Origin: Bacillota bacterium | Lineage (GTDB): Bacteria > Bacillota > Clostridia > Peptostreptococcales > Anaerovoracaceae | Direction of reading: 5' to 3' | DNA length: 64,000 nt | Assembly: GCA_017557505.1 (NCBI GenBank) | Contig: JAFYYP010000013.1 | Location: forward strand, 40,121-104,120 | Part shown: in pieces, positions 11,344 through 64,000 of the stretch | Layout: the number at the start of each line of letters is the position of its first letter | Numbering within the stretch: position 1 is the first letter of the stretch | Position numbers and translations under genes: made by a program | Notes under the pieces: generated by a model | Databases searched by the model: none | Told to the model about the DNA's origin: nothing | What the model saw: only the letters and a program-made list of their open reading frames with translations

Positions 11344-11367
11344 CCTCTTTGGTCGCCACCCCTCGGT
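11344..11367 (-). repeat. 5'-end fragment of the rod-RNA motif
   Basis: Within these bases the minus strand carries a 21-nt stretch that matches the first part of the structured RNAs at 25.4 and 58.2 kb in 20 of 21 positions (starts GAGGGGTGGCG, ends CAAAGAGG). The 3' half needed to close the rod is absent; here GACC-AAAGA-GGTC can fold as a small hairpin. It lies 13 bases before the DUF896 start, in the ribosome-binding region. Confidence 0.7.
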
Positions 11368-25290: not shown

Positions 25291-25319
25291 ATTATAGCAC
25301 AATCCCTTGTACGGTGGAA
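25291..25319 (-). promoter_or_regulatory. ftsK promoter
   Basis: TTCCAC (25314-25319), a 17-bp spacer and a perfect TATAAT (25291-25296), reading toward ftsK. It lies back to back with the mtnA promoter. Confidence 0.65.
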
Positions 25320-25323
25320 GAAC

Positions 25324-25352
25324 TTAACAAACAAACCCTTGTATTGTATAAT
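25324..25352 (+). promoter_or_regulatory. mtnA-mtnK promoter
   Basis: TTAACA (25324-25329), a 17-bp spacer and TATAAT (25347-25352). The predicted start, about 25359, is only a few bases before the first paired base of the structured leader RNA. Confidence 0.85.
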
Positions 25353-25362
25353 ATTTGTGTGT

Positions 25363-25490
25363 GTCGAAGGGGTGGCGTCTAAAGAGGCTCATCAAGACCG
25401 GAGTGAACGCCGTGACTCCCTAATTGGTTCCCGTCGCGGATGAGCGTAGGTCGAAGATGAGGATGCGTTAGACGACAGGACCCCGAAGAC
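25363..25490 (+). ncRNA. Rod-shaped structured leader RNA, copy 1 (class not identified)
   Basis: The mtnA leader folds as one nested rod. The helices are GTC/GAC (363-365/488-490, last three digits), GGGGT/ACCCC (369-373/480-484), CGTCTAA/TTAGACG (376-382/468-474), CTCATC/GATGAG (388-393/456-461), GACC/GGTC, ACGC/GCGT (407-410/444-447) and CGTGAC/GTCGCG (411-416/433-438) with a GATGA bulge. Compared with the copy at 58152, base pairs change together in the outer two helices while loops such as AGAGG, GATGCG and ACAGG stay constant. It ends about 11 bases before the AAAGGAG ribosome site, so a cis-regulatory role is plausible. It lacks S-box (SAM-I) signatures. Confidence 0.85.
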
Positions 25491-25508
25491 AAAACCAAAG
25501 GAGACAGT

Positions 25509-26561
25509 ATGCAAAACTATAAACGACAAGACGAAGGCCTCGGCTTCATGATGCAGTACGAGAACGTCGCGTGGTACGAAAACGGTGCCGTCCGCATCCT
25601 GGACCGCCGTATCTACCCCATTCGTACCGAATTCGTCACCTGCACCCGTCACGAGCAGGTCGCGCAGGCGATCGCCGATATGGTGACCCAGAGCGGCGGC
25701 CCTTATACAGCCGCATCCATGGCTATGGTGCTGGCATGTTATGAATCGGAAGACATGCCGAAAGAAAAGCGCATCGCTTATCTGGAAAAGGCCTCCTATA
25801 CCCTCTCCCACGCACGTCCGACGACTTCGGCCAAAATGCAGACCTATACCGGCCGCGTTCTGGAAGCAGCGAAGAAAGGCATGGACGAAGGCGCTGAAGG
25901 TGCGGAAGTCACGAAAGCCGCACAGGCGCAGGCTCTCGAAGATCTGAACAAACGCTATGCGAAATCCATTCCCATCGGCCGCCTGATCGCGAACGAGATC
26001 CCGGACGGAGGTTCCATCCTCACGCAGTGCTGGGCTGAACTAGACATCGCCATGGTGCTGCGCGCCATCCGCGAACAGAACAAAGACGTCAAAGTATTCT
26101 GCGCAGAGACCCGCCCCTATTTCCAGGGTGCCCGCCTCACAGCAAGCTGCGCGGTCGACATGGGTTTCGACGTTACCGTTATTTCTGACAATATGCCGGC
26201 CTATACGATGAAGACCAAAGGTATCGACCTGTTCACGAGCGCTGCGGACGTCACGACCTGCGACGGTTATATCGTCAACAAGGTCGGCACGTTCCAGATC
26301 GCCCTGGCCTGCAACTATTACGGCGTTCCCTATATCGCCGCAGGCAATCCGAATCCGGCGCATCCGTCCATCGATTCCGTCGTCATCGAAGAGCGCGATC
26401 CGGAGCTGACGCTCCACGCCATGGACATCAAGCTCACGAAGCCCGGCGTCAAGGGCTACTACCCCGCTTTTGACGTGACGCCGCCCGAATTCGTCACAGC
26501 CATCGCCACAGACAAAGGTCTGTTTAAGCCCTCTGACCTGTATAAATACTTTGAACTGTAA
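25509..26561 (+). CDS. mtnA: MtnA-like S-methyl-5-thioribose-1-phosphate isomerase
   Basis: The 350-residue protein belongs to the eIF2B-like isomerase family. The C-terminal two thirds track MtnA: a catalytic Cys in ILTQC, FCAETRPYFQGARLTA, an Asp in SAADV where MtnA has GADR, NKVGTFQIAL, IEERDPEL and PAFDVTPPEFVTAI. The N-terminal substrate loop is different: MtnA has RGAPAIG, and here the sequence is SGGPYTAAS. It should isomerise 5-methylthioribose-1-phosphate or 5-deoxyribose-1-phosphate. AAAGGAG lies five bases before the start. mtnK follows directly. No MTA nucleosidase or aldolase gene is nearby. Confidence 0.82.
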   Translation: MQNYKRQDEGLGFMMQYENVAWYENGAVRILDRRIYPIRTEFVTCTRHEQVAQAIADMVTQSGGPYTAASMAMVLACYESEDMPKEKRIAYLEKASYTLSHARPTTSAKMQTYTGRVLEAAKKGMDEGAEGAEVTKAAQAQALEDLNKRYAKSIPIGRLIANEIPDGGSILTQCWAELDIAMVLRAIREQNKDVKVFCAETRPYFQGARLTASCAVDMGFDVTVISDNMPAYTMKTKGIDLFTSAADVTTCDGYIVNKVGTFQIALACNYYGVPYIAAGNPNPAHPSIDSVVIEERDPELTLHAMDIKLTKPGVKGYYPAFDVTPPEFVTAIATDKGLFKPSDLYKYFEL

Positions 26562-34075: not shown

Positions 34076-34109
34076 ACGCTGCCGACGAAAAATGCCCGGA
34101 GTGCCGTCA

Positions 34110-34249
34110 GACTTTAATTCACGCCCTATCTAAGATAGGTGGGTCTCCTGCGGTCCGTTTTCTGCCTTCCACTGCAAACGGAGGCCTGACATACACGCGG
34201 ACGCGACATCCGGAATCCCAATGTGAAACTGTAGGTTGAATTACAAGTC
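34110..34249 (-). ncRNA. ssrS: Probable 6S RNA
   Basis: Between yebC and the sigma gene the minus strand has a closing helix, GACTTgTAATTCA paired with TGAATTAAAGTC, about 140 bases apart. Just inside are AACCTACAGTTTC and GACCCACCTATCTTAGATAGG, the kind of sequence I know from Firmicute 6S RNAs on the two sides of the open-promoter-like bubble. TCCGTTT/AAACGGA forms an inner stem. It is somewhat short for the family (usually 160-200). 6S RNA binds housekeeping RNA polymerase in stationary phase. Confidence 0.62.
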
Positions 34250-34276
34250 TTAACGCACACCCCAGGACAAAAGGTG

Positions 34277-53686: not shown

Positions 53687-53780
53687 GTTTTCCTCCTCTT
53701 TCTGCCGTGTCACATGAAAACAACAAACACGGCGGTACAACCAATTCCTCGTGGCGTTAGGCCGATAAAAGCCTGCGTAC

Positions 53781-53961
53781 CATAACCGGCAGGTTTCCTG
53801 ACTGAAGGGTCAACGTATACAGCAGCCTTCCCAACGGAGTGATCAGTGACTGCGCTTTGCGCTTTGCCGTATACTCGCCTGATACAGTGACGAGATCGTG
53901 CGGGATTCTCACCCGCTTCCCTATTACCCTCCGGCCTTTCGGCAGCGGAGGCACCGGTTAT
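53781..53961 (-). promoter_or_regulatory. Cobalamin riboswitch upstream of the double CbiK gene
   Basis: The minus strand reads TAACCGG ... AGGGAAGCGGGTGAGAATCC ... GTCACTGTATCAGG ... GTCACTGATCACTCC ... GGGAAGG ... CAGGAAACCTGCCGGTTA: the closing stem and the B12-box elements of the class. Downstream, GCCGTGT/ACACGGC forms a hairpin close to the GAGGAGG ribosome site without a U-run, which suggests control at translation. Coenzyme B12 should switch the genes off. Confidence 0.92.
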
Positions 53962-54020
53962 CTGATTCAGTTGTGTTCAGGTATGTTCCGCGCGGAATTG
54001 CCCGGAACGCGCCTTAAATA

Positions 54021-57135: not shown

Positions 57136-57235
57136 GAATACGCAATCGGCACCAGGAATAATGCATGCTGAAAAAAAACGGATGACCTGAAGTTCCTATG
57201 CGCTGCCCGGCCGTCCATCGCGGCAATGCGGCAAC

Positions 57236-57410
57236 GTACAGAAAGCAGGTCTCCTAACTGATGAGTATCCGCGTTCATCGCCTTCCCAGACCGAAGCCCA
57301 GTGACATTTTCCAGAACGCGACTCAAACATAGTTGCGGGACAGTACAGGAATCTCACCTGTTTCCCTTTTCAGGCAGGCTTTTCAGAGCCTGCGCACTTT
57401 CTGCCGTTTA
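57236..57410 (-). promoter_or_regulatory. Cobalamin riboswitch upstream of btuFCD
   Basis: The minus strand has GGGAAACAGGTGAGATTCCT, CTGTCCCGCAACT, the B12-box AATGTCACTGGG, GGGAAGGCGATG and AGGAGACCTGC in the canonical order, closed by GCAGAAAG/CTTTCTGT. It should bind a cobalamin and shut off the importer through the terminator at 57102-57135. No gene lies in the 375 bases between btuF and cobI. Confidence 0.94.
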
Positions 57411-57425
57411 AGTTCTGATGATTGT

Positions 57426-57454
57426 ATGTTAGCAAACGCTAGTTACTTTGTCAA
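57426..57454 (-). promoter_or_regulatory. Promoter of the riboswitch-btuFCD unit
   Basis: TTGACA (57449-57454), a 17-bp spacer and TAACAT (57426-57431). The -35 lies in the last codons of cobI, so btuFCD is a transcription unit separate from cobI. Confidence 0.8.
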
Positions 57455-58143
57455 TTCTCCTTGGCTATGACCAGCGCAAAGTATCCTGCATCGTCCGGGA
57501 TCTCGTCCAGATCACGGCAGATCCGTTCATTCTCCATGCCGCAGTTCAGGACCGCCTGTACGCTGCGTCCGCTTATGCGCAGATCGTCTTTGACGTCCTT
57601 CATGCGGCTGGCAGATTTCATCAGCACATAGGTGCCCCTGCTGTCAAGCATGATGTCTTCTGTGAGCGCACCGGGAATGATGTGCACCGGCTCGTCCCAT
57701 TCAGCCAGTGGAATGCCAAGCTTTGCAGCACAAGCCATGATCGAAGAGATGCCGGGCACCAGTTCCACTTTATACCCATCCGCCTCCAGATGATGCTGCA
57801 GATAGCTGAACGTGCAATAGACCGTGGGGTCGCCCAGAGTCAAGAAGACAACTGTCTTCCCCTGGTTGAGCTGCTCTTCCAGCATGTCCGCGCCTTTTCT
57901 GTGCGCTTCTGCAAGTACTTTCCTGTCCTTCGTCATGGGCATTGGGATCGCAAGCAGTTCCTTTTGCGCGATCTCCGGTACCGCTCCTGCAGCAATTTTA
58001 TAGGCTACGGACTGTTTTGCTTCTTTCCCGGGGACAACAATCACGTCAGCTTCCCGGATCAATTTTATCGCTTTTAACGTCATCAGTTCCGGATCTCCGG
58101 GACCGACGCCGATGCCATATATAATTCCATTAGTCATAATCAT
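57451..58143 (-). CDS. cbiL: Cobalt-precorrin-2 / precorrin-2 C20-methyltransferase
   Basis: The 230-residue tetrapyrrole methylase begins IIYGIGVGPGDPELMTLKAI and has VFLTLGDPTVYCTFSYLQ and VPGISSIMACAAKLGIPLAE, features of CbiL/CobI. It makes the first methylation specific to the corrin route. It stands apart from the other cbi genes, is read separately from btuFCD, and has no clear Shine-Dalgarno. The bases just before its start are the opposite strand of the structured RNA copy 2. Confidence 0.94.
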   Translation of the reverse strand: MIMTNGIIYGIGVGPGDPELMTLKAIKLIREADVIVVPGKEAKQSVAYKIAAGAVPEIAQKELLAIPMPMTKDRKVLAEAHRKGADMLEEQLNQGKTVVFLTLGDPTVYCTFSYLQHHLEADGYKVELVPGISSIMACAAKLGIPLAEWDEPVHIIPGALTEDIMLDSRGTYVLMKSASRMKDVKDDLRISGRSVQAVLNCGMENERICRDLDEIPDDAGYFALVIAKEN

Positions 58144-58151
58144 AAATCAAA

Positions 58152-58277
58152 GCCGAGGGGTGGCGTCCAAAGAGGCTCATGGCTGAGTGCAGCGAACGCC
58201 GTGACTCCCAAGAGTTGCGGTCGCGGATGAGCGTAACGAAGACCATGAGGATGCGTTGGACGACAGGACCCCGAGGC
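58152..58277 (+). ncRNA. Rod-shaped structured RNA, copy 2 (no sense gene downstream)
   Basis: The same fold as the mtnA leader: GCC/GGC (152-154/275-277, last three digits), GGGGT/ACCCC (157-161/268-272), CGTCCAA/TTGGACG (164-170/256-262), CTCATGG/CCATGAG (176-182/243-249), ACGC/GCGT (196-199/231-234) and CGTGAC/GTCGCG (200-205/220-225) with a GATGA bulge. It lies between cobI and xth, both on the other strand, and no plus-strand gene follows. Possible -10 elements at 58120 and 58135 have poor -35s. It could be a small RNA acting in trans, or antisense to the 5' end of cobI. Confidence 0.82.
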
Positions 58278-58283
58278 ATACCT

Positions 58284-59036
58284 TTAGATATCGATCTCCA
58301 GGATCACCGGGCAATGATCCGAACCGAACACGTCGCTGCGGATAACGACATCCTTCACCTTCGGCATCAGCCTGTCAGATACGACGAAATAGTCTATCCT
58401 CCATCCGACGTTCCGTTCTCTGGCTCTCATGCGGTAGCTCCACCAGGAATACTCGACTTTGTCGGGATATAACGAGCGGAACGCATCTGAGAATCCGCAT
58501 GCCAGCAACTGAGTAAAAGCATCGCGTTCCTCGTCTGAAAACCCAGCATTATGGTGATTCGTATCCGGATTCTTCAGATCGATCTCGTTGTGCGCAACGT
58601 TCAGATCGCCGCATAAGATCAACGGCTTTTTCGCGTCGAGTTTCTTCAGATATTCGCGGTTTGCGGCCTCCCACTGCAGGCGGTAATCCAGGCGTGCCAG
58701 TTCGTTCTGGGAATTCGGCGTATAGTTCGTGACCATATAAAATTCCGGGTATTCCAGCGTGATCGCGCGTCCCTCCTTATCGTGTCCTTCGGCGTCGATA
58801 TGAAAGTTTACAGAAAGCGGTTTCTGTTTCGCAAAGATCGCGGTACCTGAATACCCTTTCTTTTCCGCAGAATTCCAGTATTCCTCGTACTGCGGCAAAT
58901 CGATGACGGCCTGTCCGGGCTGGCATTTCGTCTCCTGGATGCACACGATATCCGCGTCTTCCGCTTCCAGGAATTCGATCAATCCTTTGCCCATCGCAGC
59001 CCGTATGCCGTTCACGTTCCAGCTGATGATCTTCAT
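58284..59036 (-). CDS. xth: Exodeoxyribonuclease III
   Basis: The 250-residue AP endonuclease/exonuclease has ISWNVNGIRAAMGKG, the metal ligand Glu in QETKC, GDLNVAHNEIDLKNP, WRIDYFVVSDRL and the catalytic pair in GSDHCPVILEI. It cuts DNA at abasic sites during base-excision repair. I start at MKIISWN (59036), with AGGAGG six bases upstream; the longer frame would translate the GC-rich repeats of the gap. Confidence 0.96.
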   Translation of the reverse strand: MKIISWNVNGIRAAMGKGLIEFLEAEDADIVCIQETKCQPGQAVIDLPQYEEYWNSAEKKGYSGTAIFAKQKPLSVNFHIDAEGHDKEGRAITLEYPEFYMVTNYTPNSQNELARLDYRLQWEAANREYLKKLDAKKPLILCGDLNVAHNEIDLKNPDTNHHNAGFSDEERDAFTQLLACGFSDAFRSLYPDKVEYSWWSYRMRARERNVGWRIDYFVVSDRLMPKVKDVVIRSDVFGSDHCPVILEIDI

Positions 59037-59059
59037 GGTTTGCCTCCTGATATAAGATG

Positions 59060-59083
59060 AGGGCGGGTCTTGCGGCCCGCCCT
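59060..59083. terminator. GC-rich hairpin upstream of xth
   Basis: AGGGCGGG pairs with CCCGCCCT over an eight-base loop. On the plus strand it is followed by TTGTTT, on the minus strand by no U-run, so it fits a plus-strand terminator or a structure in the xth leader. Confidence 0.5.
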
Positions 59084-59111
59084 TTGTTTCCCCGTTATCC
59101 GCCTGCGCGTT

Positions 59112-59195
59112 CTCCGGGCATCTCGTCTCCGGTGATTCGGTTTCCCGATGACCCGGACCCTTATCCCCGGTGCTTCGATTTTCACGATATCCCGG
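59112..59195. repeat. Tandem CCGG-bounded hairpin units in the porB-xth gap
   Basis: Units at 59129-59156 and 59167-59195 share CCGGTG-TTCG-TTT-CGAT-CCCGG with a few changes. Each folds on itself: the first gives TCGG-GAAA-CCGA on the minus strand. A third, weaker CCGG...CCGG unit lies at 59112-59132. The rest of the 206-base gap shows no gene. Confidence 0.55.
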
Positions 59196-59243
59196 GCGAC
59201 TCATCCTGCGGGTTGCCCCGCGGCTTCTAACAAGTAGTATAGA

Positions 59244-63662: not shown

Positions 63663-64000
63663 AATACATGAGCAGCCTGTAAGCCGGGTTCTGTATTAAG
63701 CGGTCATCTTTCTAGGACCTCTGTCGCCAGAGGACTCGAGCGACCTACCTCCCGGGAAGGGACGGGCCGTCCCCTTTCAGGCGGTTCGCCTTGCGGCGCC
63801 TGCCTCCCTGTCTGGTCTTGCTCCGGATGGGGTTTACACGGACGGATCCTGTTGCCAGGATCCCGGTGAGCTCTTACCTCGCCTTTTCACCCTTGCCCTT
63901 GCGGGCGGTTGTTTTCTGTTGCACTTTCCCTGGGGTCACCCCCGGCAGCCGTTAGCTGTCATCCTTGCCCTGCGGAGCCCGGACTTTCCTCACGCCCTGC
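63663..64000 (-). ncRNA. rnpB: RNase P RNA, type A (5' end outside window)
   Basis: The minus strand reads GAGGAAAGTCCGGGCTCC at the right edge, then ACAGCTAACGGCTGCC, GGGTGACCCCAGGGAAAGTG, CAGAAAACAACCGCC, AAGGGTGAAAAGGCGAGGTA, AGAGCTCACCGGG, TAAACCCCATCCGGAGCAAG and, near the 3' end, TACAGAACCCGGCTTACAGG. These are the conserved regions of the ribozyme that matures tRNA 5' ends. About 70 bases of the 5' end should lie beyond 64000. Confidence 0.97.

Follow-up and report, generated by a model that had tools for sequence, protein, structure and literature searches.

Two segments of the window, as we call the whole 64,000-nucleotide stretch of DNA analysed here, raise the question of whether a pair of closely similar rod-shaped sequences is a metabolite-sensing leader of one gene or a dispersed element that merely occurs in front of it. 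The sequence-only reading had described them as a two-copy, covarying structured RNA and proposed either a riboswitch-like element for a methylthio/deoxyribose metabolite at mtnA or a dispersed small RNA. Both segments were found where it had placed them, with the core AGGGG...CCCCGA at positions 25368-25486 and 58156-58274 of the + strand, and their alignment gave a mean column identity of 86%. The full elements span 25360..25494 (+ strand, cmsearch 153 bits) and 58148..58282 (+ strand, 138.3 bits), scores that belong to copies from the training set of the covariance model. Each segment is predicted to fold into a single rod, as had been supposed, with -52.6 kcal/mol (z -3.1) for the mtnA copy and -58.5 kcal/mol (z -4.4) for the second one, whose reverse strand folds more weakly (-46.8 kcal/mol, z -2.9). 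From its base the + strand rod of the mtnA copy contains stem P1 (TGTC/GACA, 25362-25365 with 25488-25491), stem GGGGU/ACCCC (25369-25373 with 25480-25484), P2 (25376-25382 with 25468-25474) and P3 (CUCAUC/GAUGAG, 25388-25393 with 25455-25460); the second copy is closed by a P1 of 3 bp (GCC/GGC, 58152-58154 with 58275-58277, + strand). The first element lies in the leader of mtnA (S-methyl-5-thioribose-1-phosphate isomerase, 25509..26561, + strand; NCBIfam NF004326, 305 bits with a cut-off of 271 bits), the start codon of which is 14 nt past its 3′ end. The second is antisense relative to both flanking genes and indeed has no sense gene: the start codon of a tetrapyrrole (corrin/porphyrin) methylase gene (TP_methylase, 57451..58143, − strand; Pfam PF00590, 170.6 bits) lies, according to our own gene call, 10 nt from its 5′ end, and the end of an exonuclease/endonuclease/phosphatase-family gene (Exo_endo_phos, 58284..59204, − strand; Pfam PF03372, 113.4 bits) adjoins its 3′ end.

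A known Rfam family was rejected for both copies. With E <= 10 as the limit, cmscan of positions 25300-25550, which contain the mtnA copy, found no family, in agreement with the earlier impression of an unrecognised structured family, and a scan of the whole window at gathering scores matched neither copy. Its only matches were RNase P RNA, truncated where the window stops (63664-64000, − strand), two cobalamin riboswitches (53771-53973 and 57227-57416, both − strand) and 6S RNA (34089-34271, − strand). For eight loci carrying elements of the classes A and B or of a second hairpin family, all described below, no match at E <= 0.5 fell inside an element; two sub-threshold matches, both in L060, lay outside it.

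The number of copies turned out to be far from two. With the mtnA copy as a blastn query, 13 places that match it over most of its extent, with an interruption in one case, and one additional shortened place, split in two, were registered in the genome of the window (G000; 2.2 Mb in 56 contigs, 87% complete), and seven other copies there were 90–94% identical to the query. A covariance model, R1, trained on 12 copies from this genome and 8 related ones, recognised in 20 fetched regions of the same genome 14 copies of class A and 4 of class B, besides one weak fragment, i.e. many dispersed similar copies with no internal gene, as is characteristic of a repeat element. Class B has in common with class A only the ends AGGGGTGGC and GACAGGACCCC, while its interior differs. 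The window itself contains, beside the two full elements, a truncated third copy, of which only the 5′ end AGGGGTGGCGACCAAAGAGG is present (11344..11363, − strand; sequence and left-end pattern match G000:C50:51474-51483). It directly precedes a short ORF, which we take to be DUF896-like. In the fetched regions of six genomes R1 found 63 matches (65 rows, two of which repeat the window copies), including 4 of class B and one weak fragment with E 0.14; by our own gene caller only two of them, the fragment L108 and L113, overlap genes by more than 40 bases. Some copies are reduced: L110, L128, L129 and L136 have the apical part deleted and the base retained, while L320, L340, L341 and the deoB site in G002 have shrunk to little beyond the ends and retain P1. 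Others are compound. In G006 there are tandem arrays of three (L154) and two (L152) elements with a spacing of 127–128 bases, and in L105, L143 and L149 a nested repeat TAGGTAACTCCCCTG...AGGGGAGATGCCGAAGGCAGAGGGG...CGAAGCA stands in place of ~7 bases of the right arm; it is present in L143 and absent from the orthologous L147.

The fold is conserved across this population. In 61 distinct rows drawn from 65 R1 matches, among them class B and deleted copies, standard pairs make up 93.8% of 1892 cells, both sides change in 19 of 33 pairs and the covariation score is 0.329 versus 0.117 for shuffled data; none of 500 shuffles reached any of these values, though this alignment is model-fitted, which favours structure, and its rows are related. 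When the partners were slid, pairing fell to 35–42%. A separate alignment of 12 copies from the genome of the window gave 97.5% of paired cells and both-side changes in 10 of 33 pairs (0 of 500 shuffles), with 33–47% of pairing after sliding by 1–3 columns; the count of further pair types was not above shuffles in this set (204 of 500 reached it). The compensating changes noticed in the outer stem and P2 are therefore genuine, as judged by pairing in the 12 copies against shuffles. Based on both alignments, conserved structure with covariation, which is one of the signs of a riboswitch, is present. The two outcomes named beforehand as fatal for the proposed structure, a match to a described Rfam family and relatives whose changes break the proposed pairs, did not occur, since the Rfam search with the mtnA copy at E <= 10 was empty and the 61 rows preserve the pairs. 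The general order of the rod from its base is variable P1, a junction, mostly G-A/G-A or G-N-A/G-N-A, the stem GGGGU/ACCCC, the loop GG/ACAGG, variable P2, the loop AGAGG/GGAUGCG, P3 and an apex, variable beyond P3. A large number of loop positions vary little or not at all. Examined as terminal inverted repeats, the GGGGU/ACCCC ends pair, but asymmetrically, and the outermost arms vary by copy.

A riboswitch should also be found in orthologous leaders of a coherent gene set, and it is here that the parallel fails. The genes that follow the copies are unrelated to one another: mtnA, trmD, mnmG, hsp33 and cobS (NCBIfam above cut-off), HIT-family, racemase-like and exporter-like genes (NCBIfam below cut-off), bipA-type and mutS-type genes (Pfam). 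Upstream regions of 16 genes compared in up to 8 species were filled in 30 of 88 cases, empty in 54 and contained relics in 4, with orthology of sites taken from protein matches, synteny not confirmed at each site, and L165 and L191 left out as too short. The 58 newly fetched regions among them gave no full element and three partial matches; the fourth relic, at deoB in G002, was recognised by eye. The element occupies the upstream region of mtnA in 2 of 6 species, of trmD in 2 of 7 and of hsp33 in 1 of 7. A riboswitch specific for mtnA was rejected because of the diversity of genes and the empty upstream regions, and some copies are antisense to the neighbouring gene. Of the earlier proposal, the structured and dispersed nature of the element stands, while the metabolite switch at mtnA does not.

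There is a less specific version of the same idea, namely that we deal with a family of cis-regulatory leader RNAs or riboswitches with a broad regulon, governed by a translation- or growth-linked signal and spread by duplication in the genus. The location of the elements agrees with it in part. With L108 and L113 dropped, 61 copies remained, 47 when orthologous sites were counted once; 36 of these, three class B copies included, lie outside G006, and with genes called by our own script, free of annotation, 26 of the 36 are found between co-directional genes, 9 between divergent and 1 between convergent ones. The elements between co-directional genes are oriented in sense in 20 cases and in antisense in 6 (p = 0.009), 29 of the 36 lie upstream of a sense gene, and the 3′ end precedes its start codon by a median of 25 nt (range −30 to 263, 29 cases). 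The single convergent case is no significant lack (p = 0.19), because convergent DNA makes up only 8.3% of intergenic bases. In G006 the orientation is reversed (3 sense, 8 antisense), which speaks against the repeat reading. The sequence TATAAT was seen by eye within ~20 bases upstream of the element in L097, L110, L136 and L139, in favour of the leader RNA, as are the strong covariation and the RNA-strand wobble bias described below. However, at L099, L100, L104, L119 and L134 TATAAT lies in the interval that separates element and neighbouring gene, or overlaps the element end, so that the transcript of the neighbour need not contain the element, and at hsp33 the element separates a Shine-Dalgarno-like sequence from the ATG. 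Together with the diverse genes, antisense copies and mostly unoccupied leaders this makes a broad regulon very unlikely.

Filled and empty sites lead to another view. Throughout, the names ppdK, oadA, deoB, hom, ilvC, rimO, dmpA-like and GNAT are presumptive, as they come from our recognition of the sequences. The close relatives G004 and G007 differ in occupancy at ilvC, cobS and rimO and also at L297 and L299, two sites of class B. G004 seems to be empty at L305 as well, but the alignment is poor, and L303 is a collapse and not an empty site. At mtnA the insertion separates the start codon from a −10-like box, at trmD and the dmpA-like gene it immediately follows a stop codon, and at rimO it is found between stop and start codons that abut at the empty site of G004. 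No target-site duplication was recognised by eye in these filled/empty comparisons, where blurred boundaries could let a short one escape. Based on the pattern of occupancy one can assume that the element is insertional and probably mobile, like BOX or RUP repeats. Sites shared between species complicate this picture: several orthologous sites hold the element in more than one species, that of mnmG in four, which is not predicted by independent random insertion without inheritance or hot spots. Even at shared sites the cores cluster by genome (17 label changes versus 35.9 in shuffled data, 0 of 200 shuffles as low), with the exception of the mtnA pair of G000 and G003 and the pairs of G004 and G007, and this clustering may reflect reinsertion at hot spots or conversion of old copies. 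In two cases different species carry different classes at one site, L106 (A) and L299 (B) at the 3′ end of carB, L124 (A) and L308/L310 (B) in an AMP-ligase-like leader, and it looks as if interiors had been swapped between conserved ends.

The outer stem behaves in its own way. After ten copies with misfitting end patterns were dropped, 52 were scored, four of class B among them, 40 of which are non-redundant and 30 remain without G006; in these 30 the P1 run averages 4.7 bp versus 2.5 bp with reshuffled arms, the maximum of 1000 shuffles being 3.1. P1 has at least 4 bp in only 34 of the 52 scored copies, 2–3 bp in L106, L107, L113, L114, L132, L135, L139 and L145, and also 2–3 bp, never reaching 4, in all ten scored copies of G006. 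The cores of L097, L098, L099, L100, L101, L102 and L104 reach 90% identity or more with the mtnA copy, and their left arms are TGTC, TCGTTTC, ACCCC, GCCCC, CGCGC, TGCC and ATATCCC, respectively. Thus, despite close cores, P1 mostly differs between sites of one genome; it is in common for L098 and L103 and for L137 and L138, which are probably recent duplicates. At the same site of different species it can differ by one compensated pair, from GCCCC/GGGGC to GCTCC/GGAGC at the racemase-like gene and from ACGTTT/AAACGT to ACGCTT/AAGCGT at ppdK. A palindrome of the target that existed before insertion was considered as a source of P1 and was not seen at the empty sites of ilvC, cobS and rimO; at ilvC and cobS, filled in G007 and empty in G004, neither arm was found in the empty site. 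At the GNAT gene of G000 the right arm overlaps a native −10-like box, and some native bases are possibly used in P1. P1 is part of the inserted DNA, it pairs far beyond chance and its sequence is locus-specific. A second, unrelated dispersed hairpin family with the core CAACGCTCGTCAAC...TTCCTCGCTT was observed in G004 and G007 (L326, L329, L330, L331, L332, L333, L141). Its flanks are likewise copy-specific and paired, as in L331: TTGAGCGGA-CCGATATT...AATATCGG-C-TCCGCTCAA.

Where one strand has a G-U pair, its complement has an A-C mismatch, and the ratio of the two reveals the constrained strand. Estimated as the fewest changes on a tree of 100 columns of the same cores, which is poorly resolved, and without the class B copies, the fragment and four rows that carry long inserts or branches, the stems other than P1 underwent 26 changes to G-U versus 4 to A-C (p = 6e-5). 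For P1, the register of which in the model alignment is inexact in some copies, the numbers were 2 and 7, with no G-U excess (Fisher p = 0.0006 for the contrast between inner stems and P1). Counted by cells, they were 68 versus 12 and 4 versus 8. Strand-biased deamination could mimic part of this bias, but should then affect P1 too. Because the inner stems favour G-U over A-C while P1 does not, we infer that the constraint on the inner rod acts through the sense strand, be it RNA or single-stranded DNA; the outer arms, we infer further, are rewritten at the DNA level. Such a difference within one repeat offers a natural test of how far RNA-like covariation of bacterial repeats stems from selection on RNA and how far from rewriting of hairpin arms in DNA.

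It may be objected that the repeats are pure DNA palindromes, the covariation of which originates from template switching between the arms during replication, with no selection at the level of RNA. Template switching does generate multi-base compensatory changes, according to published work (PMC8794818), and both the absence of G-U excess in P1 and the copy-specific paired arms of the second family in G004 and G007 are in line with this mechanism. It does not account for the wobble bias of the inner stems, which P1 lacks, and homogenisation of arms leaves unexplained the near-invariant loops and the G-A/G-A junction next to P1. For the element as a whole we find this explanation quite improbable.

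Mobilisation as single-stranded DNA, the structure of which is read by a transposase or integrase in an IS200/IS605- or attC-like manner, would give the same strand asymmetry. G-T pairs are tolerated in single-stranded DNA, the element is a hairpin in which unpaired bases are conserved and stems vary, and strand-specific insertion could produce the sense bias. As regards an integron attC site with its cassette array, what follows the copies resembles ordinary chromosomal genes. Of 8 genomes in the genus, 3 have the Y1 transposase domain (Y1_Tnp, PF01797) above cut-off, and it was absent from the element carriers G000, G003, G006 and G007, though absence from draft genomes is uncertain. Mobilisation by RAYT/IS200 was rejected, as the presence of the Y1 transposase does not track the element, and the single-stranded route in general seems unlikely. 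A longer, ORF-bearing element with the same ends was not recognised by eye among exact 10-base ends in six genomes. In one same-strand pairing of ends at ~2 kb (G006 C168, 5135 and 3103) both ends adjoin a short copy or fall within one. The absence of such partners counts against the repeat reading, as do the unrecognised target-site duplication and the short P1 of many copies.

The element is narrowly distributed. Of the 8 genus genomes, 6 gave blastn matches, and R1 at E <= 0.001 found it in 7 of 349 genomes of the family, six from the genus and G243, where the match is weak (4.6e-6) and class B-like in sequence; at most 9 candidates were scored per genome and the copy counts are lower bounds. 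The pattern of ends with a gap of 50–80 bases likewise matched 7 of 349 family genomes, with 0 for the reversed control. The exact class A pattern, searched over contigs of 84,980 species, from which records near the genome of the window are possibly missing, gave 65 exactly matching stretches, of which 35 belong to five MAGs from this genus. Among 25 of the 30 non-genus stretches (five from Pelagibacteraceae, L244, L251, L252, L260 and L268, being left out) and 5 viral matches, R1 scored best L245 (24.5 bits, nominal E 0.0003), the sequence of which lacks both element ends. The element appears to belong to a single genus of Clostridia, whose members come at least in part from the stomachs of ruminants (abomasum, rumen).

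Taken together, these data make it probable that the segments in the window are copies of a small, non-coding, dispersed hairpin repeat of ~95–135 bp, resembling MITE or BOX elements. We hold it to be selfish, with a rod constrained as RNA and outer arms rewritten in DNA. Such a repeat would enter the DNA between genes, frequently in the stretch that separates a start codon from the preceding promoter or stop codon. With one species excepted its orientation is mostly sense, so that it is expected to be transcribed as a rod-shaped leader or intercistronic RNA. The conserved ends AGGGGUGGC...GACAGGACCCCGA would frame interchangeable interiors of class A and class B and may be recognised by a putative enzyme acting in trans. 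P1 may be rewritten at the DNA level, for instance by template switching at the hairpin base, and any effect on the host transcript would be incidental rather than a ligand-dependent switch. In a bolder form this becomes a mobile leader RNA that is selected as a folded RNA of the sense strand, in which the ends are the only fixed recognition part, interiors are swapped and the outer stem is rewritten as new paired sequence around the insertion. We consider this rather doubtful. If true, each copy builds its own closing helix, and the second hairpin family with its copy-specific arms would indicate a general process, such as hairpin-templated synthesis or an RNA or single-stranded DNA intermediate, and not one odd repeat. 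On the practical side, covariation between two copies in raw sequence is easily mistaken for a riboswitch signature; here it marks a dispersed repeat, and hence the first checks should concern copy number and empty sites.

In a search of the literature with short sequence strings of the repeat, no title among the papers listed concerned bacterial repeats, though a text search cannot prove that it is undescribed. Among known systems, REP sequences of the GTAG and CGTC superfamilies, treated together with RAYTs, are also extragenic palindromes, partly transcribed, and GTAG REPs have been proposed to be miniature transposons (PMC3733652). They are 20–40 bp long with an unpaired GTAG or CGTC tag and lie mainly downstream of genes, whereas the element described here measures 95–135 bp, has no recognised tag, lies mostly upstream of a sense gene and has four carriers in which no Y1 transposase was found. 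By description, it can be likened to ERIC/IRU, Correia/NEMIS, RUP and related sequences, which are small, mobile but non-autonomous and may take part in mRNA regulation through their RNA structure (PMC2229807). Most instructive is the comparison with BOX, RUP and SPRITE of Streptococcus pneumoniae, for which we rely on a portion of PMC3049150. All three are overrepresented between convergent genes (p = 0.0017, 3.4e-7 and 1.7e-9, respectively), where our element was met once in DNA of a scarce type; the ends of BOX and RUP resemble those of an IS, whereas no partner was found here; and the copy-specific paired outer stem, typical of our element, is not mentioned for them in that portion. Nevertheless, these pneumococcal repeats, which are viewed as parasitic and likely to influence co-transcribed genes, are like the element of the window small, dispersed and nearly confined to a species and its kin, they fold tightly when transcribed and have neighbours of no informative functional class, and BOX shares with it the modular interior (PMC3049150).
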